Shown one piece after another: positions 32,413-53,381 of a stretch of 62,156 bases of DNA (its first letter is position 1; each line of letters starts with the position of its first letter). Position numbers and translations under genes: made by a program. The stretch lies in contig JAILIG010000042.1 of NCBI GenBank assembly GCA_024695445.1, positions 1 to 62,156 of the forward strand, given 5' to 3'. The notes beneath the pieces are model-generated. The model worked only from the letters and a program-made list of their open reading frames with translations, ran no database searches and was not told the origin of the DNA. Source of the stretch: Oscillospiraceae bacterium. Its GTDB lineage: Bacteria > Bacillota > Clostridia > Oscillospirales > Ruminococcaceae.

Positions 32413-32970
32413 ATGAAAGACAAAAGAATTCTTTTGATGCTGCATAACAGAGATGAGCAGGCGCTCAGGGCAATCATCGCCGAGTACGGAGCGCTCTGCC
32501 GGTCTGCTGCGCTCGATATTCTCAGGGACGAGCAGGATGCGGAGGAGTGCTTCAGCGACGCTCTGCTGACCGTCTGGAACGCGGTTCCGCCCGCCTGCCC
32601 TGAGAATTTCCGGGCGTACCTTCTGAAAATTCTTCGCAATCATGCGCTGGACAGGTATAAAGCCAGACAGCGCGGCAAGCGCGGAAACGGACAGTATCCG
32701 GCGGCACTGGACGAGCTCGCGGAAATCCTGCCTGCGCAGCAGAACACAGAGGCTGCCGTAGAACAGCGGGAAATGCTTTGCGCCGTGACGGAGTTTCTCC
32801 GCACGCTCCCGCAGAAGCAGCGCGACCTCTTCGTCCGCCGGTACTGGAGCTTTTCTTCATTTGCCGAGCTGGCGGCGGATTTTCACATGACGGAAAACAA
32901 TGTAAAGGTCACGCTGACACGCCTGCGGCAGCGCTTGACGGAACATCTGAAAAAGGAGGAATTGCTATGA
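32413..32970 (+). CDS. ECF-like sigma factor, module 1
   Basis: The 185-residue protein has a sigma-70 region 2 (about 10-85, with DEQDAEECFSDALLTVWNAV) and a region 4 helix-turn-helix (about 120-180, with LPQKQRDLFVRRYW and MTENNVKVTLTRLRQRL). No region 1 or 3 is present, so it is an extracytoplasmic-function type. It shares DAEEC...LxTWNAxPPA, the RNxAxx block and the ALDEL segment with the sigma factor at 47659. Its stop overlaps the start of the next gene (ATGA), coupling it to its likely anti-sigma partner. No clear ECF promoter was identified upstream. Confidence 0.92.
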   Translation: MKDKRILLMLHNRDEQALRAIIAEYGALCRSAALDILRDEQDAEECFSDALLTVWNAVPPACPENFRAYLLKILRNHALDRYKARQRGKRGNGQYPAALDELAEILPAQQNTEAAVEQREMLCAVTEFLRTLPQKQRDLFVRRYWSFSSFAELAADFHMTENNVKVTLTRLRQRLTEHLKKEELL

Positions 32971-33938
32971 CACCGGAAGAACTGATCGGGCTGATGAATG
33001 AGCTGCCCGATGACATGATTGATTCCGCAAACCGCACGCGGTTCCGGCGGCGCGGCAGCATCTGGTATCTGATTCCCGCGGCCGCTGCCTGCCTGCTGGT
33101 CGGCATTGCGGCAATGCTTTACCCGAAGCTGCAAACGCAGAAGCCGGCAGCAGTCGGTCCGGCTGAAACGGGAATATCGGTCAGTGCGGAGACAACTGGC
33201 AGCGAAACCTCCGCCGCCGACAGCACCTCTGCACCGGTTTCCGGTACACAGCAAACGGAAACCGCCGTTTCGGATGAACCGTCTCACCGCACCGGGACGC
33301 AGAGTGATACAAGACCGTCATCCGGTACACAACATACGACTGCTTCTGTGTCAAGCATGACAACCGACAGCACAGTGCATTGTACAGAGGCCACGCCGCA
33401 GTCAACACAGGACACCAAAATAACATCGCTGACTTCTCAGAGCACAAGTCAAAGCACCGCTTCTTCTGCGAATGAAACGGAATCCAAAACGGATGCGAGC
33501 GATGAGGGCATGACATTCACAGAAGAGCCTGTCCCCTTCCGCATTCTCAGCCAGAAAACAGTGGAAGCGTCCGAGGAATCGCTGCCTTTTTCGACGCAGA
33601 TCAAGCTGTATCGGGATGCCTTGCCGGATGCCTATTCTGCAGAGCTGTTCCCTGCGATAGACTTTGAAACGGAGGACTGTCTGGTCATCCGGTTCCGTGC
33701 AGAAGGCTGCGGAGACGGAATAGCAGAGCCGTCAGGCGGCAGCGGAATGTTTTACAGCATCACCGTGACACCGCCTGCGGCACCGGAAGGCACTGTGCAG
33801 GAATTTGCCATCGCTGCGGTCGTTCCGAAGGCGCTTTACAGCCCCGCCGCACCGGACGGACTCAACCGGTGGCTGCGTCTGGAACGCACCGTTCGTGCGG
33901 GTGCGGAAATGCAGTGTACGATGATCCGGTATGAATGA
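32967..33938 (+). CDS. Putative membrane anti-sigma factor, module 1
   Basis: The 323-residue protein has a short cytoplasmic N-terminus (ELIGLMNELPDDMIDS), one membrane helix (about 33-52), a Ser/Thr-rich linker (about 62-180) and an external C-terminal domain of about 140 residues that I do not recognise. Gene order, ATGA overlap with the sigma gene and topology match an anti-sigma factor that senses outside the cell. It carries no zinc-binding HxxxCxxC motif. The ATG at 32967 follows AAGGAGG by about 8 bases; upstream parts of the same open frame overlap the sigma gene and are not coding. Confidence 0.8.
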   Translation: MTPEELIGLMNELPDDMIDSANRTRFRRRGSIWYLIPAAAACLLVGIAAMLYPKLQTQKPAAVGPAETGISVSAETTGSETSAADSTSAPVSGTQQTETAVSDEPSHRTGTQSDTRPSSGTQHTTASVSSMTTDSTVHCTEATPQSTQDTKITSLTSQSTSQSTASSANETESKTDASDEGMTFTEEPVPFRILSQKTVEASEESLPFSTQIKLYRDALPDAYSAELFPAIDFETEDCLVIRFRAEGCGDGIAEPSGGSGMFYSITVTPPAAPEGTVQEFAIAAVVPKALYSPAAPDGLNRWLRLERTVRAGAEMQCTMIRYE

Positions 33939-33954
33939 ACAGGAGGGATTCATA

Positions 33955-34752
33955 ATGAAGAACATCAAAATCAAAGCCGCGTCTGTGCTCCTTATGACAG
34001 GATGCCTGTTTGCACAGGCACCGCTGACGGCATTCTGCGCTGACGGCAGCAGTATAGCAAAAGCAATCTCTCTCGTGGAGATTGGTGGAAGCAGGCTGCT
34101 GTTCGACGAAAGCACCGGTGCATGGTACGATCAGGCCGGCAATCTGCTGGCGGATGCGTCGGCACCCTTGCAGACTGCGCTGTACGAGGGAAAGACCTAC
34201 ACCGTTGACTTGAACAAAATGCAGGTGTCTGCCGCAGACGGCGGCGTGAACGACGAACTGACCGCGCTGCTGCCGCAGTATCTGGCCTTCCGCCCTCTGA
34301 CGGTATCGGCAATTGACGGACAGTATCTCGATGAGCTCTTCGGGACAGAGACATACGAAGCTGCTGCGGCACAGATTCAGCAAATCGTGCAAAGTATTCC
34401 GCTAACCTATCGGTTCAGTGATTCGACGGAACTGTTTTACTGCGAAATTTCGCTCGGCAGCGAGGTGCTCGGCGGTATGCAGTACTCGATCGACGCAAAC
34501 GATTACCCGGAAGCAGTTCCGTGGTGCAATGACGGCGACAGTGCCGGCATCCAAACCGCATTTACCGGCATGGGCGATGTCAATGTCAACGGCAGATACG
34601 AGATTGCGGATGCAATTCTGCTGGCGCGTTACATCGCGGAGGATGCCGAAGCGGCCGTATCCAGCCTCGGACGGGAGCTGGCTGACATGGACGGCGACAG
34701 TCTGCTCCGCGCAGAAGATCTGGTTCTGGTGCTCCGGCAGCTTGCCGGCTGA
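33955..34752 (+). CDS. Secreted dockerin-containing protein, module 1
   Basis: The 265-residue protein has a signal peptide (about 1-25), an N-terminal domain of about 175 residues containing LLFDESTGAWYDQAGNLL and SIPLTYRFSDSTELFYCEI, and a C-terminal type I dockerin-like module (about 207-265). The latter has two calcium loops, GDVNVNGRYEIADAILLARY and LADMDGDSLLRAEDLVLVLR. The start at 33955 follows AGGAGG by 8 bases; upstream ATG at 33931 lacks support. It would attach to a cohesin-bearing scaffold. Its N-terminal region is paralogous to that of the 1371-residue protein at 49266. Confidence 0.88.
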   Translation: MKNIKIKAASVLLMTGCLFAQAPLTAFCADGSSIAKAISLVEIGGSRLLFDESTGAWYDQAGNLLADASAPLQTALYEGKTYTVDLNKMQVSAADGGVNDELTALLPQYLAFRPLTVSAIDGQYLDELFGTETYEAAAAQIQQIVQSIPLTYRFSDSTELFYCEISLGSEVLGGMQYSIDANDYPEAVPWCNDGDSAGIQTAFTGMGDVNVNGRYEIADAILLARYIAEDAEAAVSSLGRELADMDGDSLLRAEDLVLVLRQLAG

Positions 34753-34766
34753 CCGGTTCCGTACAA

Positions 34767-34803
34767 ACAGCGCCCCTCACAGCTTCGTGAGGGGCGCTTT
34801 GCA
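34767..34803. terminator. Bidirectional terminator
   Basis: GCGCCCCTCAC pairs with GTGAGGGGCGC between the convergent dockerin and lysA genes. Confidence 0.85.
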
Positions 34804-34807
34804 TTGA

Positions 34808-36103
34808 TTACAGGTCGCAGCGGCAGATGTCCTCGTAGGTCTCGCGGCGGACAACCGTCCGCACCGCGCCGTTCTTTACCATGACCATTTCCGGCCGCGG
34901 ATTGCGGTTGTAGTTCGACGACATGGAGTAGTTATAGGCGCCGGTCGCCAGCACGGCCAGCGTATCGCCCGCCTGTGCCTCCTGCAGCAGCATATCCTTG
35001 CCGATCAGGTCGCCGCTCTCGCAGCACTTTCCGCCGATCGTGACCGTCTCGGTGCGCGGGGCGTCGGCACGGTTTGCGATGAGCGCTTCGTACTCCGACT
35101 CGTAGAGCGCATAGCGCGGGTTGTCGCACATTCCGCCGTCGATCAGCACATAAGTACGGATGCCCGGAATCTGCTTCTTCGCCATGACCGTATAAAGTGT
35201 GATGCCCGCAGCGCCGACAATCGAGCGGCCCGGCTCAAAGAGCATGAACGGCTCCGGGTACGAGAGCGCCGCACAGGTCTTGCGGATGGCTTCCAGCATG
35301 GCGCGGACGATGTCGCCGAAGGGCTTCGGATCGTCGCGCTCAACATAACGGATGCCGGGGCCGCCGCCCAGATTCAGCTCCGTCAGGACGATGCCGGTCT
35401 CCTGCCGCACGGTATTCATGAGGCCGAGCATCACACGGGCGGCCTCTGCAAAGGGCTCGGTTTCCAAGATCTGCGAGCCGATGTGGCAGTGCAGGCCGAC
35501 CAGCTCCAGATTCGGACAGGCAGCAGCAGCCTTGACCGCTTCCAGCGCCTCTCCCGTTTCCAGCGCAAATCCGAACTTGGAATCAATCTGCCCCGTCTGA
35601 ATGAAGCTGTGGGTGTGCGCGTCGATGCCCGGCTTGATGCGGAGCAGAATGCGCACGGTCTTGCCCGCGTCCGCCGCAATGCGGTTCAGGCGCGTCATCT
35701 CCGGCAGATTGTCCGCGACAATTCTGCCGACATTGCTGTCCACTGCCATTTGCAGCTCAGCATCGGTCTTGGAGTTGCCGTGCATGACAATGTCCGAAGC
35801 GGGCATTCCGGCGGCAAGTGCCGTAAAGAGCTCCCCGCCCGACACAACATCGGTGCCGAGGCCCTCCGAATGCACGATGCGGTACAGCTCCTTGCAGGAG
35901 AGCGCCTTGCTGGCAAAACAGATCATGCCGTTTCCGCCGTACTCCTCCTGCAGAACGCTCCGGAAGCCGCGGCAGTTTTCGCGGACCGTCGTTTCATCCA
36001 TGACATAGAGCGGGGTGCCGTGCTGCTGCGCCAGCGCCACACAGTCGGCTCCGCCGAACAGCAGATGCCCTTCGTCAGAAACAGTCAGATTGGGTGTAAG
36101 CAT
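34808..36103 (-). CDS. lysA: Diaminopimelate decarboxylase
   Basis: LysA makes lysine from meso-diaminopimelate with pyridoxal phosphate. The 431-residue protein has the PLP lysine in MICFASKALSC, the GGGPGIRY phosphate-binding loop and the conserved CCESGDL active-site Cys segment near the end. The ATG at 36103 follows AAGGA by 8 bases; other in-frame starts upstream are less supported. It follows rlmL by 5 bases in an operon headed by a penicillin-binding protein gene, away from the riboswitch-controlled dap operon. Confidence 0.96.
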   Translation of the reverse strand: MLTPNLTVSDEGHLLFGGADCVALAQQHGTPLYVMDETTVRENCRGFRSVLQEEYGGNGMICFASKALSCKELYRIVHSEGLGTDVVSGGELFTALAAGMPASDIVMHGNSKTDAELQMAVDSNVGRIVADNLPEMTRLNRIAADAGKTVRILLRIKPGIDAHTHSFIQTGQIDSKFGFALETGEALEAVKAAAACPNLELVGLHCHIGSQILETEPFAEAARVMLGLMNTVRQETGIVLTELNLGGGPGIRYVERDDPKPFGDIVRAMLEAIRKTCAALSYPEPFMLFEPGRSIVGAAGITLYTVMAKKQIPGIRTYVLIDGGMCDNPRYALYESEYEALIANRADAPRTETVTIGGKCCESGDLIGKDMLLQEAQAGDTLAVLATGAYNYSMSSNYNRNPRPEMVMVKNGAVRTVVRRETYEDICRCDL

Positions 36104-36108
36104 GGAAA

Positions 36109-37236
36109 TCATCCTTCCCTTTTTTCCTTCCAGAATTGATAAAGCTGACATTGCAGCATTCCGTTATAGAGCTTCCGGCGCCTGCGCGCTTTCCGCCCGT
36201 AGCATTTTTCAAATTCCGCATCCGGCGTGATGATGCTGCACGCGGCATCATCCGGAAACACCATGCCCATGACGCGGTACAGCGCTCTGGCTGCGGAGAC
36301 ATCGAGCATCCGCTCACCGTAGGGCGGATTGCAGACGATGATCTGTCCGGGGACAGCTTCAAAATCCCTGATGTCGCGCTGCTTGACCGTGATGCGGTCG
36401 GCAACGCCGGCCTTTTTTGCATTTTCGATTGACAGCGCCACGGCTTCCGGATCACAGTCATAGCCGAAGGCCGTGAATGCGGCATCGCGGTTGATTTTGG
36501 CGCGTGCCGCTTCCCGCGCATCAAACCATGCGCGCTTCGGCATCTGCGTCCAGCGCTCGGCGGCAAACCGCCGGTGCAGTCCGGGTGCCATGTGCATTGC
36601 GCGGTATGCGCCCTCGATCAAAAAGGTGCCGCTGCCGCAGAACGGATCGCAGAGCACTGCGCCCGCCCGGCAGTGAGACAGATCTAAAATACCGGCCGCA
36701 AGCGTTTCGCGGATCGGTGCGGCGTTGGCAATCTGCCGCCAGCCGCGCTTATAAAGCGGAACGCCGGAGGTGTCAAGATATACCGTACACAGATCGCTGC
36801 GAATGGAAAACTGTATCTGATGCACGGCGCCGGTCTCCGGCAGCGCCTCGGTGTGATGCGCACGCTGAAGGCGCCTGACCGCCGCTTTCTTGACAATCGC
36901 CTGACAGGCAGGCACACTTTTCAGGGCGGAATTCAGCGAGCTGCCCTTGACGGGAAAGGCATCGTCCGGTCCGATGAACTGCTCCAGCGGAAGTGCCGCC
37001 ACGCCCTCAAACAGCGGATCAAAGGCGGTTCTGCCGCGCTGCGGTGCGACAGAAAAGCTGCCGAGTTCAATCAGCACACGCTCCGCTGTCGTCAGCTCAA
37101 CATTGGCGGCGGCGAGCATCGTCCAGTCTCCGGTGAAGGACACTCTGCCGTCTGCCGCACTGATCTCCGCTGCGCCGAGCCGGATCAGCTCAAATTTCAA
37201 AACACTTTCCAGTCCGAAATGACAGGGGCAGCACAT
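36109..37236 (-). CDS. THUMP-domain class I rRNA methyltransferase (RlmL-like)
   Basis: The 375-residue protein starts with a THUMP-type part (MCCPCHFGLESVLKFELIRL) and carries a Rossmann methyltransferase domain with DPFCGSGTFLIEGAY and the catalytic NPPYGERM motif, as in RlmL-type enzymes that make m2G in 23S rRNA. ATG at 37236 matches the family start but has GGAGG 19 bases away. A TTG at 37278, 8 bases after GGAGG and just after the penicillin-binding protein stop, would add 14 residues. The true start is therefore open. Confidence 0.88.
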   Translation of the reverse strand: MCCPCHFGLESVLKFELIRLGAAEISAADGRVSFTGDWTMLAAANVELTTAERVLIELGSFSVAPQRGRTAFDPLFEGVAALPLEQFIGPDDAFPVKGSSLNSALKSVPACQAIVKKAAVRRLQRAHHTEALPETGAVHQIQFSIRSDLCTVYLDTSGVPLYKRGWRQIANAAPIRETLAAGILDLSHCRAGAVLCDPFCGSGTFLIEGAYRAMHMAPGLHRRFAAERWTQMPKRAWFDAREAARAKINRDAAFTAFGYDCDPEAVALSIENAKKAGVADRITVKQRDIRDFEAVPGQIIVCNPPYGERMLDVSAARALYRVMGMVFPDDAACSIITPDAEFEKCYGRKARRRRKLYNGMLQCQLYQFWKEKREG

Positions 37237-37279
37237 CCGGAAACCCGTTGTGCTGCCTCCCTTCTGCTGTCGTTCCAAA

Positions 37280-39691
37280 TCAGTTTCCTCCGCCGGCATC
37301 CGGGCCGTAGTTTTTGGCTTCCTGCAGGCCGAGCTCACGGTTGTCACAGTACGGCGCATTAGTCGATTTCCAATAGCCCTCGACGCCCTTGCCGCAGGAA
37401 TCCACCGCGATCTTGCCGGTTGCGGTGCAGACATGGCCCTTGATGACGGTGCTGCACTCCGGGAAGTCCCTGCCGGACCAGTTCCGGACAATCCAGTCGC
37501 CGATGATGTTTTTCCACGCGTGCGGCGTATCAATCGCGCCGCGGTTCTTGATTTCCTTGTTTTCCTTGTAGCCGAGCCAGCAGCCGCTGACGAAATCAGG
37601 ATTCAGGCCGACAAACAGCTTATCGCACCAGTCGGTCGTCGTACCGGTCTTACCGGCAATCGGAATCTGCTTGCCGTTCTTATAGAGCTTGGCCTGCTTA
37701 CCGGTACCCTGCTCGCCGTTGACAACATTCTGCAGCAGCTTGTTCATGACATAGGAGGTCTCGCGGTCTACGGCCTGCGTACTGCCCTCGCCGCCCTGGT
37801 AGATGACGCCGCCGTCACCGGATTCCACGCGGTCGATGATGTGCGCATCGCAGAAGGTGCCGCCGTTGCCGTAGATCATGAAGGCGTTGACCAGATCCTT
37901 GACCGTCACGCCGTAACGCAGAGCGCCGACGGAAAGCGGAGCAAAATCCTGGTCCTTGACATCGAGGTCGAGGCCGAGCGTATTGGTTGCAAAGTCGAAC
38001 ACCTTGTCCTTGCCGTAGGTCTTGACCAGCATGGCCGGGATCGTGTTCTTGGAGACCTCCAGCGCCTTGTAGACATTGACCTTGGCACGGGACCATGTGC
38101 CGACACTCGTTTCGGAGTAGTTGGTCGGCCACGGATTACCGGTCTCAGGGTTCGTCATGACCGGAGCGTCGAGAATCTTTGAGCCCCAGGAAATCGCATC
38201 GTGATAGAGCGCGTAGCCGTAGGATGTGACAGGCTTGATCGCGGAACCGGGCTGCTGCTTTTCAGTCGATGCAAAGGAGGTGCCGAGCGAACCCTTCTTC
38301 TTGCCGATCATGCCGACGGTGCAGAGCACTCTGCCCTCGTAGTCGATCGCGGTAAAGCCGCACTGCAGCGGCATCACCTCGTCCTTGCCGTCCACAACGC
38401 CCTCATATTTGCCGTCGTGGTTCAGGTCGCGCAGATAATTCGTGCGGGCTGCGGTCGTCATGCCGCTCAGGATATTGTTCATGTCCAGGAACTTCGCTTC
38501 GACATATGCCTGCATTTTCCGGTCAACGGTCGTATAGATCTGATAGCCGCCGCTGTTGATCTTGGCGAGCGCTCTCTGCATCGTGATGCCGCGCTGATCC
38601 ATCAGCACATGAGCGTACTCGCGCAGCGCCTCGTCAACCGCCCACGAAGTGGACTTTTCCTCGGTGATGGCTGCACCGTTCTCGTCCACCTTCGGCTCCT
38701 CGTCCGGGTGGAGCTGCTTGTACTCGTCAGTACCCTTGAAGATCAGATGCTCGTGCAGGGCATCCTGATACTCGTCAAAGGTGATTGCGCCGTTGTAATA
38801 CATTCTGTAAAGGATATACTCCATACGGTCGCGGTTAGTCTGCATACCGGTGTTGATAAATTTGTCGGAAATATACTCGGTCTTGGTGACATTGTTGAAG
38901 CCGCGCTCGTAGTAGCCGGCGAAGGGGTTGTTGACCTCCGGGCTCTGCGGAATGGCTGCAAGGCACGCGCCCTCTGCAATCGACAGCTCGCTGACGGACT
39001 TGCCGAAATACTTCAGGGATGCCATCTCGACGCCGTTTGCCGCGCCGCCGAAGCCGATGTAGTTGATATAGGTTTCCAGGATCTCGTCCTTGGAATAGGA
39101 CTTTTCAAGCTGGAGTGCGCGGTAGACCTCACGGATCTTACGCTGCGGGCTCGTTTCATCGTCGCCCGTCAGGTTCTTGACGAGCTGCTGGGTGATCGTC
39201 GAACCGCCCTGCTCGGAGTTCCAGAACTTGAGGATCATGTTTGCGATTGCACCGGCGGTACGCTTATAGTCCACGCCCTCGTGCAGATAGAAACGCTCGT
39301 CCTCGCCGTAAACAAAGGCATCGCGCACATGCTGCGGAACCTTTTCCAGATCAACCGGGAGTCTCTGGACGGACTGGTTGACATTATAGACATTGATATA
39401 TTCGCCGTTTTCGTCCGTCTCGTAGATGTTCGTCGAATAGCTCATTGTCATTTCCTGAATGCTGACAGAGGTGGTCGTTTCCATGTAATTGAGGACATAG
39501 CTCGTCGCCGCAAGGGCACAAATGACGCCTGTGATAATGAACAGCAGCATAAAGGACAGCACCGTGACCAGAATCACGGAACCGATTTTTTTGAGAATGC
39601 GCAGAATCAGCGGGGTTCTGCGGCGCTTTTTTTTCTTTTTTTCTGGCTTTTGCAATGCGCCGGTGCTGCTGATTGCGTTGGTCATATCCAT
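37280..39691 (-). CDS. Class A penicillin-binding protein (PBP1a type)
   Basis: The 803-residue protein has a basic cytoplasmic end (KKKKKRRR), a membrane helix (about 36-65), a GT51 glycosyltransferase domain (EDERFYLHEGVDYKR, GGSTITQQLVKN) and a transpeptidase domain with the serine in QQPGSAIKP (SxxK), an SxN-like motif further on, and the KTG in AGKTGTTTDW. It polymerises and cross-links peptidoglycan outside the membrane. It heads a PBP-rlmL-lysA operon. A poly-A coding tract of about 20 bases near the start may be prone to slippage. Confidence 0.95.
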   Translation of the reverse strand: MDMTNAISSTGALQKPEKKKKKRRRTPLILRILKKIGSVILVTVLSFMLLFIITGVICALAATSYVLNYMETTTSVSIQEMTMSYSTNIYETDENGEYINVYNVNQSVQRLPVDLEKVPQHVRDAFVYGEDERFYLHEGVDYKRTAGAIANMILKFWNSEQGGSTITQQLVKNLTGDDETSPQRKIREVYRALQLEKSYSKDEILETYINYIGFGGAANGVEMASLKYFGKSVSELSIAEGACLAAIPQSPEVNNPFAGYYERGFNNVTKTEYISDKFINTGMQTNRDRMEYILYRMYYNGAITFDEYQDALHEHLIFKGTDEYKQLHPDEEPKVDENGAAITEEKSTSWAVDEALREYAHVLMDQRGITMQRALAKINSGGYQIYTTVDRKMQAYVEAKFLDMNNILSGMTTAARTNYLRDLNHDGKYEGVVDGKDEVMPLQCGFTAIDYEGRVLCTVGMIGKKKGSLGTSFASTEKQQPGSAIKPVTSYGYALYHDAISWGSKILDAPVMTNPETGNPWPTNYSETSVGTWSRAKVNVYKALEVSKNTIPAMLVKTYGKDKVFDFATNTLGLDLDVKDQDFAPLSVGALRYGVTVKDLVNAFMIYGNGGTFCDAHIIDRVESGDGGVIYQGGEGSTQAVDRETSYVMNKLLQNVVNGEQGTGKQAKLYKNGKQIPIAGKTGTTTDWCDKLFVGLNPDFVSGCWLGYKENKEIKNRGAIDTPHAWKNIIGDWIVRNWSGRDFPECSTVIKGHVCTATGKIAVDSCGKGVEGYWKSTNAPYCDNRELGLQEAKNYGPDAGGGN

Positions 39692-39783
39692 GAAAATGAA
39701 GCTCCTTTCGGGTACGGCAGTTTCCGCTGCCGGCTTGGGCTTTTCACCGAAAAAAACGGTAAAAGGGATATTTATACAGATTT

Positions 39784-41228: not shown

Positions 41229-41244
41229 AACTGCCGGATTCTGC

Positions 41245-43193: not shown

Positions 43194-43266
43194 GCTGGTG
43201 TAGCTCAGTTGGTAGAGCAGCTGATTTGTAATCAGCAGGTCGGGGGTTCGAGTCCGTCCACCAGCT
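43194..43266 (+). tRNA. tRNA-Thr (TGT)
   Basis: Acceptor stem GCTGGTG/CACCAGC, D-arm TAGCTCAGTTGGTAGAGCA, anticodon loop TTTGTAA with anticodon TGT, and T-loop GTTCGAGTC are all in place. The CCA end is not encoded. Confidence 0.97.
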
Positions 43267-43276
43267 TCTGATATAT

Positions 43277-43361
43277 GGGAGAGTTCCCGAGTGGCCAAAG
43301 GGGGCAGACTGTAAATCTGTTGCGTCTCGCTTCGGTGGTTCGAATCCACCCTCTCCCACCA
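43277..43361 (+). tRNA. tRNA-Tyr (GTA)
   Basis: Acceptor stem GGGAGAG/CTCTCCC, anticodon GTA in loop CTGTAAA, and a long variable arm as in bacterial tRNA-Tyr. CCA is encoded at 43359-43361. It is 11 bases after tRNA-Thr. Confidence 0.96.
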
Positions 43362-44833: not shown

Positions 44834-47476
44834 ATGCAGCAGATTACAGCCGCGGCCGGATCCGGTCTGACGGAGGAAGCAGCCGCACAGCGCCGCAGAG
44901 AATTCGGGGAAAACCGGCTGGCAGCCGAGAAAAAAGCGCATCCGCTCCGCATCCTGCTCCGGCAGTTCTCCGATGTGACGGTGCTGATTCTGATTGCGGC
45001 GGCGGGGATTTCGCTGCTGCTGCATGAATATGCCGATGCCGTCACGGTTGCGGTCATCGTCGTACTGAATGCGCTGCTTGGATTCATACAGGAATTCCGC
45101 ACGGAGCAGACCTTGCTCGCTCTGAGCCGCATGACTGCCCCGACGGCGCTCGTCCGGCGGGACGGCACCGCAAAACGCATTCCCGCGGATGCGCTCGTAC
45201 CCGATGACATCATTCTGCTCGAAGCCGGCGACTGCGTCCCGGCCGATGCTGTCATCCTCTCCTGCGCACAGCTCTCGGCGGAGGAATCCGTCCTGACCGG
45301 CGAATCTGCGGCCGTGCAAAAGCACACGCATTCCCCTGCCGATCCGGCACCGGACAACAGCGTCGGGCGCGGGGACATTGTCTATGCCGGTACATCCGTC
45401 ACGCACGGCACCGCCGAGGCCGCTGTCATCGCAACCGGAAAAGCAACACAGATGGGGCAGATCTCACAGATGCTCTCGGACATCGAGCCGGGGGAAACAC
45501 CGCTGCAGAAACGCCTCGGTGAGCTCGGCCGCACCGTCGCCCTGATCTGCCTTGCTGTCTGTGCGGCGGTCTCCGGCGCGGGCATCCTGCGCGGAGAACC
45601 TGTCTTTGAAATGCTGATGACCGGCATCACGGTCGCCATTGCAGCCATTCCGGAGGGGCTTCCGGCCACGGTGACCATTGCGCTGGCACTCGCCGTCCGG
45701 CGGATGCTCCGGCGCAATGCGCTGGTCAACCGTCTGCACGCCGTCGAGACGCTCGGCTGCACCTCCGTCATCTGCACGGACAAAACCGGCACGCTCACCG
45801 AGAATAAAATGACCGTCCAAAGCATTTACACAAGCGGACAGCAATATGAAGTCACAGGGACGGGCTGGCAGGTCGCCGGCTCCCTGACGCGGAACGGCTT
45901 ACCGGTCAGCGCACACCGCAGCCCCGCCCTCTCTGCACTGCTGCGCTGTGCCGTGCTTTGCAGCCACGCGGCAATTTCCCGCGGCGGTCAGGATTCTGAA
46001 TGGAGTGTCTCCGGCGATCCGACCGAAGCCGCGCTGCTCGTTGCCGCGGCAAAATGCCATGTGACAGCGGACGGCTTTGCGCGGATGCACTGCACCGCAG
46101 AACGCCCCTTTGAAAGCGAAACGCGGATGATGACCGTTTTTTGCAGCACGGACGGCTGTACGGACAGTACCGCACTGACCAAAGGTGCGTCCGATGCGGT
46201 TTTAAGCTGCTGTCAGTATTACCGTGAGCAGGAACAGATCCTTCCGCTGACGCCCGCAAAACGCGCTGAAATCGCCGCCGCTGCCGATGACATGGCCGCA
46301 AATGCCCTGCGTGTCCTCGCCTTTGCCGAGCAGGAGCAGGTTTCCGGCACGGAGCAGCCCGCAGAAATGGTCTTTCTCGGTCTGACAGGGATGCTCGATC
46401 CGCCGCGGGAACAGGCAAAGCGAGCCGTCGCCGACTGTATGCGTGCGGGCATCCGCGTCGTCATGCTGACCGGTGACCATGCGAAAACTGCGGCAGCCAT
46501 CGCGCAGAAAACAGGCATCCCGCACGGCGGCCGCGTCCGGACGGGCGCTGAGCTCGACCGCATGACCGACCGTGAGCTCGCGGACGAGATCCGGCGCTGC
46601 GGCGTGTTCGCCCGTGTCACACCCGCGCACAAGCTGCGGCTCGTCAGGGCATACAGGGCGGCAGGCGCAGTCGTCACGATGACCGGAGACGGCGTCAACG
46701 ACGCACCGGCGGTCAAGGAAGCGGATATCGGTGTCGCAATGGGTATCAACGGGACGGATGTCACGCGGCAGGCGGCGGATGTCGTGCTGCTCGACGACCG
46801 GTTTGACACGCTCGCGGCCGCCGTGCGCGAGGGACGGACGGTTTATGCGAATATCCGCAAATTTGTACGGTATCTGCTCGCCTGCAACATCGGCGAGGTG
46901 CTGACCATGTTTGCCGGAATCCTGATGGGCTTTCCGATGGTGCTGCTTCCGACACAGATCCTGCTGGTCAATCTGATGACGGACGGTCTGCCGGCTGTCG
47001 CACTCGGCCTTGAGCCGCCCGCCGCAGACATCATGCGCTGCCCGCCCCGTCCCGCCGATGCTCATTTTTTCTCCGGCGGGCTGCTCTCGCGGATTATTTT
47101 CCGGGGCATCTTCATCGCGCTGTCCACGCTCGGTTCGTTTACGACGGTGCTGCGCCTGACCGGCTCGCTCGGCGCTGCGCGCACCGGTGCGCTCGTCACG
47201 CTGATCGGCTCTCAGCTTCTTCATGTCTTTGAGTGCAAATCCGAGCAGGGCACCCTGTTTTCCGTGCCGTACTTCTCAAACGGCAAGCTGGTGCTCTCGG
47301 TGCTGATCTCTGCTGCCGTGACCGCCGCCGCAGTCTGGCTGCCGGTGCTGCAGACCGTGTTCTCGACCGTTGCACTGCCGCTTCCTGCACTGCTGACCGC
47401 ACTCGGCTTCAGCCTTGCGGTGCCGCTCGCCGCCGCCGCGGGCAGTCCCCGCGGAAATCATACGGAATCTGTCTGA
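44834..47476 (+). CDS. Cation-transporting P-type ATPase (P2, calcium-type)
   Basis: The 880-residue protein contains the actuator TGES motif, the phosphorylated Asp316 in ICTDKTGTLTENKM, an ATP-binding KGASDAVL segment, and the hinge MTGDGVNDAPAVKEADIGVA. It has about ten membrane helices, with AAIPEGLPATVTIALALAV in M4, the PEGL motif of calcium-type P2A pumps. It most likely exports Ca2+ or Mn2+. Ion choice cannot be certain. AAAGGGG precedes the start, and a terminator follows that overlaps the promoter of the next gene. Confidence 0.92.
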   Translation: MQQITAAAGSGLTEEAAAQRRREFGENRLAAEKKAHPLRILLRQFSDVTVLILIAAAGISLLLHEYADAVTVAVIVVLNALLGFIQEFRTEQTLLALSRMTAPTALVRRDGTAKRIPADALVPDDIILLEAGDCVPADAVILSCAQLSAEESVLTGESAAVQKHTHSPADPAPDNSVGRGDIVYAGTSVTHGTAEAAVIATGKATQMGQISQMLSDIEPGETPLQKRLGELGRTVALICLAVCAAVSGAGILRGEPVFEMLMTGITVAIAAIPEGLPATVTIALALAVRRMLRRNALVNRLHAVETLGCTSVICTDKTGTLTENKMTVQSIYTSGQQYEVTGTGWQVAGSLTRNGLPVSAHRSPALSALLRCAVLCSHAAISRGGQDSEWSVSGDPTEAALLVAAAKCHVTADGFARMHCTAERPFESETRMMTVFCSTDGCTDSTALTKGASDAVLSCCQYYREQEQILPLTPAKRAEIAAAADDMAANALRVLAFAEQEQVSGTEQPAEMVFLGLTGMLDPPREQAKRAVADCMRAGIRVVMLTGDHAKTAAAIAQKTGIPHGGRVRTGAELDRMTDRELADEIRRCGVFARVTPAHKLRLVRAYRAAGAVVTMTGDGVNDAPAVKEADIGVAMGINGTDVTRQAADVVLLDDRFDTLAAAVREGRTVYANIRKFVRYLLACNIGEVLTMFAGILMGFPMVLLPTQILLVNLMTDGLPAVALGLEPPAADIMRCPPRPADAHFFSGGLLSRIIFRGIFIALSTLGSFTTVLRLTGSLGAARTGALVTLIGSQLLHVFECKSEQGTLFSVPYFSNGKLVLSVLISAAVTAAAVWLPVLQTVFSTVALPLPALLTALGFSLAVPLAAAAGSPRGNHTESV

Positions 47477-47485
47477 CGCATCGGG

Positions 47486-47531
47486 CAGGGAAAACCGGGC
47501 TTTCTTGCCGGATTTCCCTGCCCTTCTTGCA
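47486..47531 (+). terminator. Intrinsic terminator of the P-type ATPase gene
   Basis: GGGCAGGGAAA pairs with TTTCCCTGCCC and is followed by TTCTTGC. The T run is short and its end overlaps the next promoter. Confidence 0.7.
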
Positions 47532-47555
47532 GTCTCGGAAAAGCTGTGATATAAT
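47527..47555 (+). promoter_or_regulatory. Promoter of sigma/anti-sigma/dockerin module 2
   Basis: TTGCAG (47527-47532) and TATAAT (47550-47555) are 17 bases apart, a housekeeping-type promoter. The leader of about 95 bases ends with AGGGGG before the sigma gene. Confidence 0.8.
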
Positions 47556-47658
47556 AATAATGAAAAAAACGGATTGTATCAAACCTGTTTTTGTAACCTC
47601 ACGCAGACGGACTGTGTCTATTTTAGTAGAGGGACATTCGGAAAGGGGGCAACGGCTC

Positions 47659-48213
47659 ATGGAGGACGCTGAAATCATCGGCCTGTATTTTGCACGCGAT
47701 GAACGCGCAATCCGCGAAACCGGAAGCAAATACGGTGCCGCACTCAGCCGTCTTGCCGAGCGGATCACCGGCAGTCCGCAGGATGCGGAAGAATGCGTCA
47801 ACGATGTCATGCTCAGCACATGGAACGCAATCCCCCCTGCAAAGCCGCAAAGTCTCTTTGCCTATCTGGTCACGGCAGTGCGCAATACCGCGATCAATCT
47901 GGCAGTCAGATCAAAAGCAGAAAAACGCGGCGGCAATCAGATGCGCCTCGCACTGGACGAGCTCTCTGAAAGTCTGCCCGCGCCGGACGATGTCGAGACG
48001 GCACTCTCGGAAAACGAGGCCGCAGAACGGATGCGGAAGTTTGTCGCCTCGCTCCCGAAGGAGACCGGCAGAATGTTCATTCTCCGGTATGTCTATCTGC
48101 TTTCTGTCAAAGAAATTGCTGAAAAAATGGGCGTTGGCGTCAGCAAGGTCAAGGTTACGCTGCACCGCACACGCCGCGCTCTGAAAGACTTTTTAGGAGG
48201 TGAAGAGCTGTGA
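47659..48213 (+). CDS. ECF-like sigma factor, module 2
   Basis: The 184-residue protein has sigma-70 region 2 (DAEECVNDVMLSTWNAIPPA near residue 36) and region 4 (LPKETGRMFILRYVYLLS and MGVGVSKVKVTLHRTRRAL). It parallels the sigma factor at 32413 in length, order and motifs. The ATG at 47659 follows AGGGGG; an ATG at 47560 sits at the expected transcription start and is unlikely to be used. The stop overlaps the next gene's GTG start (GTGA). It likely works with the anti-sigma-like protein encoded next. Confidence 0.92.
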   Translation: MEDAEIIGLYFARDERAIRETGSKYGAALSRLAERITGSPQDAEECVNDVMLSTWNAIPPAKPQSLFAYLVTAVRNTAINLAVRSKAEKRGGNQMRLALDELSESLPAPDDVETALSENEAAERMRKFVASLPKETGRMFILRYVYLLSVKEIAEKMGVGVSKVKVTLHRTRRALKDFLGGEEL

Positions 48214-49250
48214 ATGCAATGACACTGTTCAAGGCCCTGAGCCATCTGAATCCGCAGGACATCGCTGATGCGTGGAACGGCACTGCACCGGAAGAAGCAA
48301 AAACGGAGCCGGAGCAGTTTTATGCGATCCCTGCGGAAATCCCGAAGCGAAACAACCATCCGCGGCGTCTGCTGCTGAGACGCATCACGGAGGCCGCCGC
48401 CTGTGCAGCCTGCCTGGCACTCGCCGTGACCGCCCTGCTGAAATTCCGCGCACTGTCCGGAAGAACGCCTCTGAATTCCGCGCCGAACCAGACCGCTGCC
48501 GTCACGGTCATCACGACCGAACGCACCGGAACAGATACCCGAAAGACGGAATCTGTGACAGGCACCGCGGACACCGTCAGCACCGAACCCGGAACGGAAC
48601 AGACCACACAGGATACCGCGCCGCTGCAAACCAAGCAGACCGCCGGCGATACCTCCGGTTCTGCTGCGGAAACAACCGGTTCTGCGGCATCCGGAAGCCA
48701 GACCGCTGAAAGCAGCACCGCAGAGACAACCTCTGTCTCCGCCGAACAGGCCGAAGCAAAAATCCCGGTCATGGTCGTGCTCGGAGACGGCGCACAGACA
48801 CAGGACAACGGCGCGGGCTGGAGCATTCTCAAGGACAAGGCTGCAATCGAAGCCTATCTCGCGGGAGACAGCCCGGAGGTCACCGTCGGCATCGGACTGA
48901 AATCCCCTGAGCTGAAGAACAAAATCCTCAGCAATCCTGCGATGATCCGCGTGCGCTGGATGTCGGACGATGCCCGCTGGAGCTCCTACGGTATCACCTC
49001 GGCGGAGGTGAAAAACGGTGTGCTGCACCTCGGCATTGCCGTCTACTGCGCCGATTCAGCCGGCGACTTTGCCCGCAGCCCGTGGGTGTATGATGCCGCG
49101 CTCATTTGCAGCGCAGACGAGCTGCCTGATCTGCGGGATGTGCAGATCACCAAAACAGAATTTACCGAATCCGAAGCAAGCGGCATCCGCGAGTGGATGC
49201 GCTTTGATGAACAGCTTGATCCGGATTTGTACCTGACAGTCAAAAAATAA
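48210..49250 (+). CDS. Putative membrane anti-sigma factor, module 2
   Basis: The 346-residue protein has a cytoplasmic segment of about 55 residues (LFKALSHLNPQDIADAWNG is comparable to the start of its counterpart at 32967), one membrane helix (about 60-79), a Ser/Thr-rich linker (about 90-185) and an external domain of about 155 residues that I cannot assign. GTG at 48210 follows AGGAGGTG by about 9 bases and overlaps the sigma stop. The external domains of the two anti-sigma-like proteins look unrelated at sequence level, so they may sense different signals. Confidence 0.8.
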   Translation: MNAMTLFKALSHLNPQDIADAWNGTAPEEAKTEPEQFYAIPAEIPKRNNHPRRLLLRRITEAAACAACLALAVTALLKFRALSGRTPLNSAPNQTAAVTVITTERTGTDTRKTESVTGTADTVSTEPGTEQTTQDTAPLQTKQTAGDTSGSAAETTGSAASGSQTAESSTAETTSVSAEQAEAKIPVMVVLGDGAQTQDNGAGWSILKDKAAIEAYLAGDSPEVTVGIGLKSPELKNKILSNPAMIRVRWMSDDARWSSYGITSAEVKNGVLHLGIAVYCADSAGDFARSPWVYDAALICSADELPDLRDVQITKTEFTESEASGIREWMRFDEQLDPDLYLTVKK

Positions 49251-49265
49251 AAAGGAGGGTTCATC

Positions 49266-52200
49266 ATGAAACAGATCAGACGAGGAGCTTCGCTGCTGCT
49301 GGCAGGGGCAATGCTGACATCCGTGCCGGTTATCCCCTATGCGGCACCGGAAATCACTGCGGAGGCAGTCTCCCAGACACGCGTTTTCCGCTATGACTTC
49401 GGCAGCTTTGCAGCACTTTTTGACACACAGACCGGCAAGTGGTATACGGAAAGCGGTGCGGTACTGAAGCCGCAGACCGAAGCCGTCCAGACCTGGAAAA
49501 ACGGCGGCCTGACCGTCGATTTTGAACAGCATGAAGCATACAGGGAATCTGAAGACGGCACCAGAAAGCTGAATGACCGCGTGACGGATTTTCTCAGGAA
49601 TTCGCTTGCGTACTTCGTCCCGGACTATGCCACGGAGTATTACGACAAGGCACAGCAGAAGCACATCAGTGTTCCGGCGCCGACTTCCTTCCCGTTGACC
49701 TACCGCGTACTGCCGGATGCCGAATGCTTCAGCGTCGAGATCCTGATCGGCGAATACAGCCTCGGACAGTTTACGGACAGTGAAACACAGTATCAGCCGA
49801 ACGGTGCCGTCGGCTACGGACGCCCCGATGCCTTCACCGATGACGGTGACCTCACCGTGGACGGAAATATCTCCATTGCGGATGCGATCTATTCCAGCCG
49901 CATCGCCGCTGAGGACAAGGAACTGAAGATTTCCGCGCTCGGTCTCGATCTGGCGGACGAGGACGGCGACGGCATGGTCGGCATGGGCGATGTACGCGCA
50001 CTGCTCAAGGAACTGGTCTCCCCGAACACCCGTCCGTATCTCACGCAGGTCTCCGAAATCTACCGGCACGAGACACTGCGCGACCTTTACACCGCCGAGG
50101 AACTGAGCGTCTTTCTGGAGGACGGCTCGGAAACCTATGTCACGGCATACGAAAGCCTGAACGGTTCTCTGGAGCAGACTGCAAAATATCACGGCTATGA
50201 CAGCTTTGAACAGATGCTCAGTTCGTTTGAAGGCGACGGAAAGACCTCCCACTTTCTCGCAGACTGCGAGCCGGGTGAAACATACGACAAGTGGTATCTG
50301 AGCTACATTGACAGCGAAACCGTCTACAAGTACATGGAAATCAAGAGTCTTGATGTGTCGGAGGCCGGCCTGCTGACCGTCTCCTGGTACGGACTCGCAG
50401 CCGGCGAGCAGACACAGCAGTTCAACGCCTTCACGCACATCCTGACCGTAAAGCACGGCGTCTGGGATGAGATCAAGGGCTTCCACTGCGGAAACGACTC
50501 CTGCACCAGCCAATACGCATCGGGTCAAGAGGATCGTTTCTCCGCAGAGGTCGGAAAGCTGCTGACGATCACCCGCAGCCGGAGCGGACAGCGGATTCCG
50601 GCGGACGCAATCCCCGTGACACAGGATATCCGCGAAACCGTCATGATCGACGACCGGTTCGCAGAGCCCGCATTCGGCTATGACTATGACAGCTGGGACG
50701 GAAAGGATGACTATGAGCGTTCGCTGGCACTGACCGACGAGGACATGGGCGTTCAGATGAGCGTTCTGCCGAAGGACGATGAAATCCGGATCTTCACGAA
50801 GCACGACTCGCCGTATATGCCGCAGGATTGCAGAGTCACATGGTTCAAGCTGGACGACGAAGGCAAGCTGACCGTCGGCATCCTCGCGGACAGACGGAAT
50901 GACCGCCCGATCGGCGAATCGGTCGTCTTTGCAGATGACCTGCTGCTGCCGGAGGGCTCTCTGTCCGCAGACGCCGTCAAGTCGGTGGAGCTGCGTGCTG
51001 ATATCGCAAACTCGGACCTCAACGAGATTCTTGCAAACTACTATTTCAAGGAGCCGTGGGATGCCTCTATGGGATATTACCCGGTCAAGCTCGCGCTTCT
51101 GAAGGACGGCAGCACCACCACCGGAACCAGAGAGCTGACCTCTGAGATTATCTCGAACGAGCATCTGCGCGATCAGTTCGCATATGCGTTTGAGACCGCG
51201 ACCTCGTATAACCCGTCGCCGGACGATTCCGCACCGGGAACAAAAAGCATGACCAGCCGTTCCAGCCTCTCCTGCCGGAACGGGATGATTGAGCAGATTG
51301 CAAAGCAGCACGGATATGCCGACGCAGCGCAGCTTGCATGGGAGGGCCTCTATCCCTACGATACCGACCGGCATTTCCTGACGGACTGCCAAAAGGGTTC
51401 GGAATATGACCGGTGGTATCTGAGCTGCATTTTTGACGAGGAAGCCTATCAGGACTGCCGGATCACCGGCCTGAACCTCTCTGAGGACGGCCTGCTGACC
51501 GTCACATGGGCGATGCTCAGCAACGAAAAAGCAGAAGATACTGCGTTCTCCCATATCCTGACCGTGGAGCACGGCATCTGGGACAAGGTCAAGGCATTCG
51601 ATTTCAAGACAGTGCTCTATGACGCCGCAGATGCGGAACAGCTCGCAGCATTCCGAAGAGCCGCCGGACAGGCGCTGACGATCGGACACAGAGCACCCGA
51701 TGAGGAGCCGCCCACCTACATCGACGGTGTGCAGATTCTGCTCGAAGAATACAGTTCTGTCAAGGCAGACTGGGACAAACGGTCTGACGAGGACTGGACC
51801 TATGAATGGACGAAAAGCTCCTCTGCATTCATCAGACAGGAAGACTACGAAGCGGCCGAGCAGACGCTGGTCAGCCCCTCTGACGGGTTCTGCCACATTT
51901 CCGCGGCGCTGAAACGCGGTGAGAAATCTGACACACTCATGCTCTACTGCACGGCAGAAGCCCCGTTTGACGGCGCATTCGGCATCCGCTCGCTTCAGAT
52001 GGACAAAGACGGCAAGCTGACGGTCTCGGTCGCCTTCTGCACCACAGGCGACCGCCCGGTGCCGGTCATCCACGGCAGAAGACTGACTCTTCCGGCCGGA
52101 CAGCTGCCGGACATCACGGCACTGGAAGTTCAGCACACCTCCTACAATGATCCCGGCGCGCTGCAGGACGAAAGCAACGGCGATTATTTGAGATTCAAAA

Positions 52201-53381
52201 GCGCGGTTTCTAAGTATAACGGAATCGCAGTGACGAGAATCGGAACGGAACAGCCCCGCCTGTCGGATTTCACATATCCGGTCACCGAGCACAAGGTGCT
52301 GTGCGACCAGTACACCGTTCAGAGAATGACTGACTCCTACACGGATGAAACCGGCAATGTCACAGTGAAAACTATGATGACATACAACACATTAAACGGC
52401 AACCTGGAAGAAATTGCAAAGATTCACGGCTATGAAAACGGACTGGAGCTGCTTCAGGCAGTGGAACAAATTCCAAGAACGGACAGCGGCGCACACTTCC
52501 TGTTGCACTGCGAAGAGGGCGAGCAGTTTGACAAATGGTATCTGAGCTTCTTTTTCGACAGTGAGTGCTATAACCGCTGCGAATTCTCCGACCTTCGGCT
52601 GACCATCGGCAGAGGTATGCTGGACATGAAGCTCTCTCTGCTGAATGACAGAAACGGCGCCGGCCTTTTCTACAATGCGTTCACGCACATCCTGACCGTG
52701 GAGCACGGTCTCTGGAACAAGGTCAAAGGGTATTGGATTGACGCGAAAACCTATTCCGGTGAGAATGCAAAGGCGTTTTCGGAATCGTACAGCGACAAGC
52801 TGACGCTGATATATACGGCATCCGAGGAAGCCCACGCTTCAATCAGAATCAGCACAGCAATCATCAATGTATCCGGACTGGAGCATGAGCAGGAGAAGCT
52901 CCAATACGACGGCACTCTGACCGACTGGGAAGGCAGGGACGACTTTCTGGAGGCAAGCAGGACGCTCAGCACGGCATGGGACTGCGACCTGCCAAACGGA
53001 ACCACAGACCGCCGCGCAGAGCTCTGTGCTCTCGTGAAGGACGGAAAGCTGAAGCTCTATATCACCGGCAGCAGCGAGGAGGTTTCCTGGTCCTCATACT
53101 GCGGCATCGAAGAACTGTACCTCGGACCGGACGGCAAGCTGACCGTTACGGCGGGATTTTATCCCGCAGGCGATGTGCAGACGCCGGTGATCTTTGCAGA
53201 AACGATTGAACTCCCGCAGCGCTATGCTTCCGATCGGATTTTGTCCGTGGAGCTGATCCCGCATATCTACCGGGATCCCAGAGACAACTCCTCCGGCTCC
53301 GCAGTGATCCGCGGCGAACAGTGGGAGGCCTTCCAGGCTGCGACCGAAACCGTTAGCTTTACGAGAGAAACGGCTGCGTAA
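49266..53381 (+). CDS. Secreted dockerin-containing protein with three large repeats, module 2
   Basis: The 1371-residue protein has a signal peptide (about 1-30), an N-terminal domain like that of the module 1 protein (ALFDTQTGKWYTESGAVL; SFPLTYRVLPDAECFSVEI), an internal dockerin-like module (about 191-250, with GDLTVDGNISIADAIYSSRI and LADEDGDGMVGMGDVRALL) and three repeats of about 370 residues (about 256-620, 621-996, 997-1371). Each repeat shares an FL-DC/HC---E-YDKWYLS-type block and HILTVxHGxWDKVK-type block. No catalytic motif or known carbohydrate-binding module can be recognised. The start follows AAGGAGG. Confidence 0.88.
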   Translation: MKQIRRGASLLLAGAMLTSVPVIPYAAPEITAEAVSQTRVFRYDFGSFAALFDTQTGKWYTESGAVLKPQTEAVQTWKNGGLTVDFEQHEAYRESEDGTRKLNDRVTDFLRNSLAYFVPDYATEYYDKAQQKHISVPAPTSFPLTYRVLPDAECFSVEILIGEYSLGQFTDSETQYQPNGAVGYGRPDAFTDDGDLTVDGNISIADAIYSSRIAAEDKELKISALGLDLADEDGDGMVGMGDVRALLKELVSPNTRPYLTQVSEIYRHETLRDLYTAEELSVFLEDGSETYVTAYESLNGSLEQTAKYHGYDSFEQMLSSFEGDGKTSHFLADCEPGETYDKWYLSYIDSETVYKYMEIKSLDVSEAGLLTVSWYGLAAGEQTQQFNAFTHILTVKHGVWDEIKGFHCGNDSCTSQYASGQEDRFSAEVGKLLTITRSRSGQRIPADAIPVTQDIRETVMIDDRFAEPAFGYDYDSWDGKDDYERSLALTDEDMGVQMSVLPKDDEIRIFTKHDSPYMPQDCRVTWFKLDDEGKLTVGILADRRNDRPIGESVVFADDLLLPEGSLSADAVKSVELRADIANSDLNEILANYYFKEPWDASMGYYPVKLALLKDGSTTTGTRELTSEIISNEHLRDQFAYAFETATSYNPSPDDSAPGTKSMTSRSSLSCRNGMIEQIAKQHGYADAAQLAWEGLYPYDTDRHFLTDCQKGSEYDRWYLSCIFDEEAYQDCRITGLNLSEDGLLTVTWAMLSNEKAEDTAFSHILTVEHGIWDKVKAFDFKTVLYDAADAEQLAAFRRAAGQALTIGHRAPDEEPPTYIDGVQILLEEYSSVKADWDKRSDEDWTYEWTKSSSAFIRQEDYEAAEQTLVSPSDGFCHISAALKRGEKSDTLMLYCTAEAPFDGAFGIRSLQMDKDGKLTVSVAFCTTGDRPVPVIHGRRLTLPAGQLPDITALEVQHTSYNDPGALQDESNGDYLRFKSAVSKYNGIAVTRIGTEQPRLSDFTYPVTEHKVLCDQYTVQRMTDSYTDETGNVTVKTMMTYNTLNGNLEEIAKIHGYENGLELLQAVEQIPRTDSGAHFLLHCEEGEQFDKWYLSFFFDSECYNRCEFSDLRLTIGRGMLDMKLSLLNDRNGAGLFYNAFTHILTVEHGLWNKVKGYWIDAKTYSGENAKAFSESYSDKLTLIYTASEEAHASIRISTAIINVSGLEHEQEKLQYDGTLTDWEGRDDFLEASRTLSTAWDCDLPNGTTDRRAELCALVKDGKLKLYITGSSEEVSWSSYCGIEELYLGPDGKLTVTAGFYPAGDVQTPVIFAETIELPQRYASDRILSVELIPHIYRDPRDNSSGSAVIRGEQWEAFQAATETVSFTRETAA

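Follow-up and report, generated by a model that had tools for sequence, protein, structure and literature searches.

The 62,156-nucleotide (nt) window analysed here, contig JAILIG010000042.1 of an Oscillospiraceae bacterium (assembly GCA_024695445.1), carries two gene modules, each comprising an extracytoplasmic function (ECF) sigma factor, an anti-sigma-like membrane protein, and a secreted protein with a dockerin. Both modules are likely to belong to a genus-wide expanded family of ECF sigma/anti-sigma circuits. The explanation we favor, and regard as probable when taken as a whole, is that these circuits are autoregulated: a surface signal would release the sigma factor, which would transcribe its own operon and, in the branch of sigma factor 1 (sig1), further dockerin genes, much as SigI/RsgI pairs do elsewhere. 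The work was sequence analysis throughout; six reading frames were considered, and all coordinates refer to the whole window.

The order ECF sigma factor, anti-sigma-like membrane protein and secreted dockerin protein is common to both modules, and the frames were located as claimed in the preliminary description of this DNA, including the coupling of the first two genes by a 4-nt overlap (ATGA in module 1, GTGA in module 2). A gap of 16 nt in module 1 and 15 nt in module 2 separates these pairs from the secreted gene, which is preceded by a ribosome-binding site in both. The features are as follows.

32348–32378, + strand: predicted ECF-type self-promoter of module 1, TGTAATG...TTTGTCGTTCTTAT, from a seeded motif; partly the source of the sig1-type pattern
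32413–32970, +: ECF sigma factor 1, 185 amino acids (aa); Pfam Sigma70_r2 3e-11 and r4_2 2e-9, TIGR02937 5e-26
32967–33938, +: anti-sigma-like membrane protein 1, 323 aa; a single transmembrane segment follows the short conserved N-terminus, and a Ser/Thr-rich stalk carries the outer domain
33060–33116, +: transmembrane helix predicted in anti-sigma-like protein 1 from residue 32 (hydropathy 2.11)
33579–33926, +: outer domain of anti-sigma-like protein 1, weakly tied to the sig1-branch outer-domain family
33955–34752, +: secreted dockerin protein 1, 265 aa; alignment to secreted protein 2, Pfam dockerin
34573–34743, +: dockerin of secreted protein 1; PF00404 at 24.3 bits (cut-off 22.9), 26.8 bits in another scan
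47592–47623, +: predicted ECF-type self-promoter of module 2, TGTAACC-N16-TGTC
47659–48213, +: ECF sigma factor 2 (sig2), 184 aa; Pfam Sigma70_ECF 3e-12 and r4_2 5e-12; 81%-identical orthologue in genome G017
48210–49250, +: anti-sigma-like membrane protein 2, 346 aa; GTGA overlap, one transmembrane segment, outer domain kept in module-2 orthologues
48384–48440, +: transmembrane helix predicted in anti-sigma-like protein 2 from residue 59 (hydropathy 2.02)
48948–49148, +: stretch within the outer domain of sensor protein 2 (the anti-sigma-like protein 2) homologous to the repeats of its secreted partner (hhalign 93.5%, E 2.4e-7)
49266–53381, +: secreted dockerin protein 2, 1371 aa; its dockerin sits between an N-terminal domain and the repeats
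49845–50015, +: divergent dockerin of secreted protein 2; aligned to dockerin 1, own-dockerin profile E 7e-9, no Pfam match
50286–50519, +: sensor-like repeat 1 of secreted protein 2
50778–51029, +: sensor-like repeat 2
51408–51635, +: sensor-like repeat 3
51930–52175, +: sensor-like repeat 4
52530–52775, +: sensor-like repeat 5
53043–53294, +: sensor-like repeat 6

Both window sigma factors displayed the two-region (sigma2, sigma4) ECF-type architecture in Pfam and NCBIfam models, and they aligned over 184 aa with 39% identity (E 1e-42), consistent with the earlier view of them as motif-sharing ECF paralogues. Their best models were ECF models, and no SigI model was present among the best 25 of the 85 and 94 NCBIfam matches. 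Searching the source genome (2.88 Mb in 190 contigs, an 89%-complete draft) with sig1 gave 26 matches at E ≤ 0.01, of which 21 reached E ≤ 4e-29 and the other five were no stronger than 1e-11. Each of the 21 sigma genes runs into a second frame on its own strand, the overlap being 4 nt in 20 cases and 14 nt in one, and of these second frames 15 are complete and six are cut by contig ends. The draft genome contains at least 21 such pairs, the window modules being two. The two modules described at the outset are paralogous, but their number was an underestimate; nor are their sigma factors each other's nearest relatives, since sig1 is closer to paralogues on contigs 92 (66%) and 27 (56%) and sig2 to one on contig 166 (50%). 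Among other genomes of the genus, all 24 searched carry 2–34 sigma copies (E ≤ 1e-20), and elsewhere in the order 6 of 16 genomes carry 1–6 copies and 10 carry none.

The membrane proteins (sensors 1 and 2 in the window) are putative anti-sigma factors. Every one of the 135 such proteins that reach 150 aa has one hydrophobic segment ahead of residue 110; in a single protein, another occurs further along. A profile built on residues 1–30 of 20 source-genome proteins matched, at E < 0.01, 74 of 82 proteins from named genomes and 37 of 37 from the genus, but 0 of 82 shuffled sequences. This short conserved segment fits a putative sigma-binding part combined with exchangeable outer parts. The zinc-binding ZAS motif occurs in many, not all, anti-sigma factors, and none of the 21 source-genome proteins (six cut short) contained HxxxCxxC in the first 120 residues. 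The part beyond the transmembrane segment spans about 200 to 720 residues in the complete source-genome proteins. In 17 source-genome proteins that were scanned (two cut), LRR, PASTA (in a cut protein), dockerin and small LRR-overlapping repeat models passed the Pfam cut-off, and most outer domains gave nothing above it. The RsgI N-terminal domain gave no Pfam match in the two window proteins (E ≤ 1) or in 15 further source-genome proteins (0.01). In agreement with the preliminary description, the outer parts of sensors 1 and 2 appeared unrelated, the best BLASTP match (E 0.13) lying in the Ser/Thr-rich stalk and the profile comparison giving 0.4%. As a lone query, the outer domain of sensor 1 had no homologue among the loci compared; a profile of the sig1-branch outer-domain family, built without sensor 1, matched it weakly (E 0.0095), and BLASTP linked it to one member at E 4e-6.

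The two secreted proteins aligned across nearly all of the smaller one (31% identity, E 3e-26), and a weaker match persisted without the dockerin (E 1.6e-6), so that the claim of a shared N-terminal region held. The dockerin assigned to both was confirmed, as a type I module, by Pfam in secreted protein 1; in secreted protein 2, it was found only by a profile built from the dockerins of the source genome, with no Pfam match at E ≤ 1. In the source genome, a dockerin gene adjoins 5 of the 15 complete pairs, namely both window modules and those on contigs 27, 92, and 19. The source-genome profile detected all five dockerins, and Pfam placed those of window protein 1 and contig 27 above its cut-off and that of contig 19 just below, with none found in window protein 2 or on contig 92. 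Genomes of the genus contain 60–150 dockerin matches each among the best 150 candidates scored, and the organism presumably makes a cellulosome, judging from its dockerins. A comparison of ECF and dockerin numbers across genomes was rejected on account of this ceiling of 150.

Linkage was further evaluated in 40 same-genus stretches, which were picked for ranking highest against sig1, sig2 or the secreted proteins and are not a random sample. Thirty-seven of the 40 stretches contained 38 sigma genes in total, all with the 4-nt overlap, and a dockerin gene came next in 28 of these 38 similarity-chosen modules and was missing from 10, which bears out the predicted linkage in related genomes. The secreted genes of these relatives are tightly spaced, mostly with a ribosome-binding site. 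In genome G017, a dockerin-bearing orthologue of secreted protein 2 stands beside an orthologous sigma/anti-sigma pair, and four of the six relatives of the secreted N-terminal domain outside the source genome adjoin such a pair. Among named genomes, the best 80 of 588 confirmed loci gave 87 sigma rows, of which 14 had a dockerin gene, 57 lacked one, 12 were cut, and four had no recognised anti-sigma. In a sigma tree of 143 sequences, sig1 fell in a clade of 35 (support 100/99; 28 with a dockerin gene, 7 without) and sig2 in a clade of nine (support 100/99; 7 with, 2 without). The dockerin label required 20 changes on the tree, compared with a shuffled mean of 38, and 0 of 500 shuffles were as low. 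None of the 57 rows in the other half of the tree had a dockerin gene (43 without, 10 cut, 4 with no anti-sigma). By the tree and the neighbour counts, the pair is therefore a wider clostridial one, with the dockerin gene found in one half, mostly in records of Ruminococcus type.

Inspection by eye showed that nearly all source-genome sigma genes are preceded by TGTAAC or a near relative, 15–16 nt, and YGTC, often with ATA. A fixed loose pattern of the TGTAAC-N15/16-YGTC type, which was seeded, occurred upstream of 10 of 21 sigma genes in the source genome and 11 of 37 in relatives (one of the 38 being too short), compared with means of 0.35 and 0.5 and maxima of 2 and 3 in 200 shuffles; a strict pattern occurred in 2 and 4, respectively. 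In relatives, the −10 box lies 29–57 nt (mostly about 45) before the start of the sigma match. In the sig1 branch, a T-run follows the −35 box, and T-tracts of this kind are cited for Bacillus ECF promoters (PMC6056542). These sites are predicted ECF-type promoters (−35 AAC, −10 CGTC) in front of the sigma operons, and because the pattern precedes the sigma genes, autoregulation appears probable. Separately, a site at window positions 980–1075, before a lipoprotein-like gene, is identical at 25 of 33 positions to the sigma self-promoter on contig 16, and a promoter-like site at contig 5:37283 (L248) is followed, after some 700 nt in which no clear gene appears, by a gene for a secreted LRR-like protein.

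To rank the upstream regions of dockerin genes, and for nothing else, a score matrix was derived from the self-promoters. Among the 119 in the source genome, 7 scored at least 10 bits, compared with 4.1 in shuffles, and 2 scored at least 14 bits, compared with 0.4; contigs 172 and 189 carry these two. The site on contig 189 is nearly a copy of the contig-27 sigma promoter, as is a weaker site on contig 108 (9.5 bits). A sig1-type pattern, written from the sig1 and contig-27 self-promoters, had five exact matches in the source genome, two at the sigma operons from which it was written and three before dockerin genes (contigs 25, 108, and 189); when as many as two mismatches were allowed, there were 7 matches vs. 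3 for the reversed pattern. In 25 genomes, with at most one mismatch, it had 22 matches in 9 genomes vs. 1 for the reversed pattern. Fourteen of these lie at sigma operons, and the remaining eight, in four genomes, all precede secreted dockerin genes, with the −35 box 77–260 nt before the gene start. Five of the targets, in three other genomes, were not used in writing the pattern. Pfam found the dockerin above its cut-off in seven of the eight; the eighth reached 18.6 of 22.9 bits and E 7e-25 with the source-genome profile, but the training set of that profile held this target. The upstream DNA of the targets is nearly identical on contigs 25 and 189, which also have a leader in common with contig 108, and two of the other-genome targets are alike. 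Among the target products are a CBM4_9/esterase protein, an LRR protein and others whose function is unknown, and the one in G024 aligns with the sig1-branch secreted family (31% identity to its first row). On these results, the sig1 branch probably controls a dockerin regulon.

The targets at contig 25:217 (L343) and on contigs 108 (L345) and 189 (L346) have in common a long leader downstream of the promoter (ttctgcacaaa...aaaccgttt...ttttac), which may be an additional control element. The contig-172 site (L279; 20.3 bits), before a secreted dockerin gene, is not matched by the sig1-type pattern and may perhaps serve another sigma factor of the family. A W-V-P-type domain of three target proteins was considered as a relative of the sensor domains and rejected, as no anti-sigma-like protein was recognised among its 36 matches.

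In the proposed mechanism, the membrane protein would hold its sigma factor through the short cytoplasmic segment and present an exchangeable outer domain on the Ser/Thr-rich stalk. Release of the sigma factor, probably by proteolysis, would follow a surface signal, most likely a plant polysaccharide or the cellulosome itself; this step is modelled on known anti-sigma circuits. The freed sigma factor would transcribe its own operon from the TGTAAC/CGTC-type promoter, including the secreted dockerin gene where present, and in the sig1 branch would also transcribe dockerin genes elsewhere in the genome; the secreted products would dock to a scaffoldin. The proposal draws on gene order, paralogy, linkage in relatives, the association of sig1-type promoters with dockerin genes, and the domain shared by sensor 2 and secreted protein 2. 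The promoter evidence for dockerin control in the sig1 branch strengthens the earlier analogy to SigI/RsgI control of cellulosomes, here with ECF factors. The narrower idea that each circuit pairs one extracellular signal with one cellulosome-linked protein was not supported in that form, in view of the about 20 circuits, the many complete pairs without a dockerin gene and the scattered sig1 targets.

Several results weigh against this explanation. Gibbs motif searches run without a seed found the Shine-Dalgarno sequence and an A-tract further upstream but did not recover the promoter, and the generic strict form was not enriched in the source genome (15 matches, 4 at sigma operons; 20 for the reversed control). 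Nine of the 15 complete source-genome pairs lack an adjacent dockerin gene, a further pair at a contig end counting in neither group, and two of the six relatives of the secreted N-terminal domain (G007, G024) lie in stretches in which no sigma gene was found. Most of the 119 dockerin genes lack the motif, and 16 of the 25 genomes had no match to the sig1-type pattern. Two of the eight targets (contigs 108 and 189) had already been seen before the pattern was written, and the eight amount to about five independent cases, of which four come from genomes other than the source genome. No carbohydrate-binding or hydrolase domain (carbohydrate-binding module [CBM], glycoside hydrolase [GH], or PA14) was found in the outer domains of the 17 source-genome proteins scanned. 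Moreover, a module-2 pattern (7 matches, control 2) found four module-2 operons and no other dockerin gene; its three other matches lie upstream of genes for an aconitase-like and a DAK-like protein (both identified by eye) and of one for a secreted protein in which no dockerin was seen, and this search found no sig2 target outside its own operon. A module-2-type promoter-like site in G009 (contig 149:556; L375) precedes a secreted protein with a PPKTGD, sortase-like end.

The nature of the signal was considered in light of domains shared between sensors and secreted proteins. In hhalign, the outer domain of sensor 2 and its orthologues matched the repeats of secreted protein 2 at 93.5% (E 2.4e-7; 77% with a shallower alignment), compared with 0.4% for another secreted family as a control. 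When 135 anti-sigma-like proteins were searched with a profile of the six window repeats, 7 of 10 module-2 members ranked first (E 4e-7 to 4e-3; best ten-fold shuffle 0.34), and with an eleven-repeat profile the first five were module-2 members, two others following at 4e-3 and 6e-3 (best shuffle 0.07). Sensor 2 itself was not significant in these direct searches (E 1.3 and 1.1) and joins through its orthologues. By these profile comparisons, the outer domain of sensor 2 is homologous to the six repeats of its secreted partner, which may mean a common ligand or mutual binding. Comparisons of profiles of the sensor 2 outer domain, a 10-row secreted family and the repeats with solved structures gave one chance-level match only (E 0.6), and AlphaFold models of the repeats and the secreted N-terminal domain were poor (mean predicted local distance difference test scores of 45 and 41). 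In addition, dockerin-like stretches were found in 8 of the 135 proteins (E < 1e-3, with a profile trained on source-genome loci), one of them complete. This one, at contig 19:15754-16593 (L061:3755-4594, − strand), carries the dockerin in its outer part (Pfam 26.8 bits), is followed by a secreted dockerin gene, and could plug into a scaffoldin; weaker dockerin-like EF-hand stretches occur in outer parts at L176, L146, L209, L180, and L074.

Both features would fit sensors that read cellulosome components, through docking or contact between like domains, instead of polysaccharide. Most sensors have neither feature, the homology may only reflect a shared ligand, and the outer domain of sensor 1 was not firmly tied to the domain shared by sensor 2 and the secreted protein (61% in profile comparison); we consider such feedback unlikely. 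Equally tentative is a bolder version of the favored explanation, in which ruminococcal cellulosomes would be under a dedicated family of up to 20–30 ECF sensors per cell, part of them reading the cellulosome itself, so that its assembly state or ligand capture outside would set the transcription of matching dockerin genes.

Somewhat less plausible than cellulosome feedback is that these are general envelope or surface-stress circuits, which sense wall or surface damage and count dockerin genes among many surface genes. Such a role would accord with the PASTA and LRR outer domains, with the scarcity of dockerin genes beside the pair in Clostridia (absent from 57 and present in 14 of the 87 named-genome rows), and with the nine complete source-genome pairs that lack one, but not with a sig1-type promoter whose non-sigma matches all precede dockerin genes or with the clustering of the dockerin label on the tree.

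Gene exchange between modules bears on a further alternative. With its dockerin masked, secreted protein 1 matched only secreted proteins of the module-2 type (E 3e-11 to 3e-7) and a further one next to another sigma branch, and gave no match to the 13-member secreted family usual with the sig1 branch. Module 1 therefore looks mosaic, and secreted genes seem to have been exchanged between modules, which would explain like secreted proteins beside unlike sensors. That the modules merely spread by duplication along with their neighbours, with no functional coupling, is very improbable: the many paralogues, the swapped secreted genes, and the near-identical upstream DNA of contigs 25 and 189, which makes the targets not all independent, fit such incidental linkage, but the tight spacing in relatives, mostly with a ribosome-binding site, and the same type of promoter before unlinked dockerin genes of three other genomes do not.

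Outside the modules, the window carries a lysine riboswitch and three tRNA genes (61916–62138, −; 43194–43361, +; 57687–57760, −). Turning to published work, a 2024 survey attributes RsgI receptors only to Acetivibrio-type cellulosomes and names no regulator in its Ruminococcus section (PMC11557425), and a 2025 review mentions none for Ruminococcus in its section on regulation (PMC12484212). No description of an ECF/dockerin system of this kind was found in the portion of the open-licence literature covered, subscription literature being mostly outside its scope. Cellulosome control in Ruminococcus-type bacteria is largely unexplained, and the ECF family offers a concrete candidate regulator with predicted promoters, target genes, and sensor domains, making control of a fibre-degrading machine of the rumen directly testable. 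If sensors do share parts with the cellulosome, this would be an unusual coupling of a secreted machine to gene expression.

Among known systems, FecI/FecR-type cell-surface signalling in Bacteroidetes combines a sigma factor, a membrane anti-sigma factor, and a third surface gene. Here, in contrast, the third gene encodes a secreted dockerin protein, and no TonB receptor was seen. The pairs also resemble other clostridial ECF sigma factors with a short single-pass anti-sigma in sigma type, gene overlap and the short N-terminal segment (74 of 82 from named genomes), but in the other half of the tree (57 rows) no row had an adjacent dockerin gene. The SigI/RsgI systems of Clostridium thermocellum, Acetivibrio, and Pseudobacteroides comprise many pairs with varied outer domains, autoregulation, and regulons recognisable by their promoters (PMC6056542, PMC4711584, PMC3413522). 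Like these, the source genome, presumably that of a cellulosome bacterium, holds many pairs of a sigma factor and a single-pass anti-sigma with different outer domains; unlike them, the sigma factors are of ECF type, the promoter is of TGTAAC/CGTC type, no RsgI domain, CBM, or GH was found in the source-genome proteins scanned, and the dockerin gene is often part of the operon. The circuits probably work like SigI/RsgI but with ECF parts. The nearest precedent is sigma24C-Rsi24C of C. thermocellum, likewise a sigma24-type pair with a membrane anti-sigma, which is upregulated on pretreated poplar (PMC3990059) and whose Rsi24C carries a non-catalytic GH5 that binds crystalline cellulose (PMC3526467). 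That system is one pair with a GH5 module, whereas here about 20 pairs bear other outer domains and dockerin genes stand in the operon.

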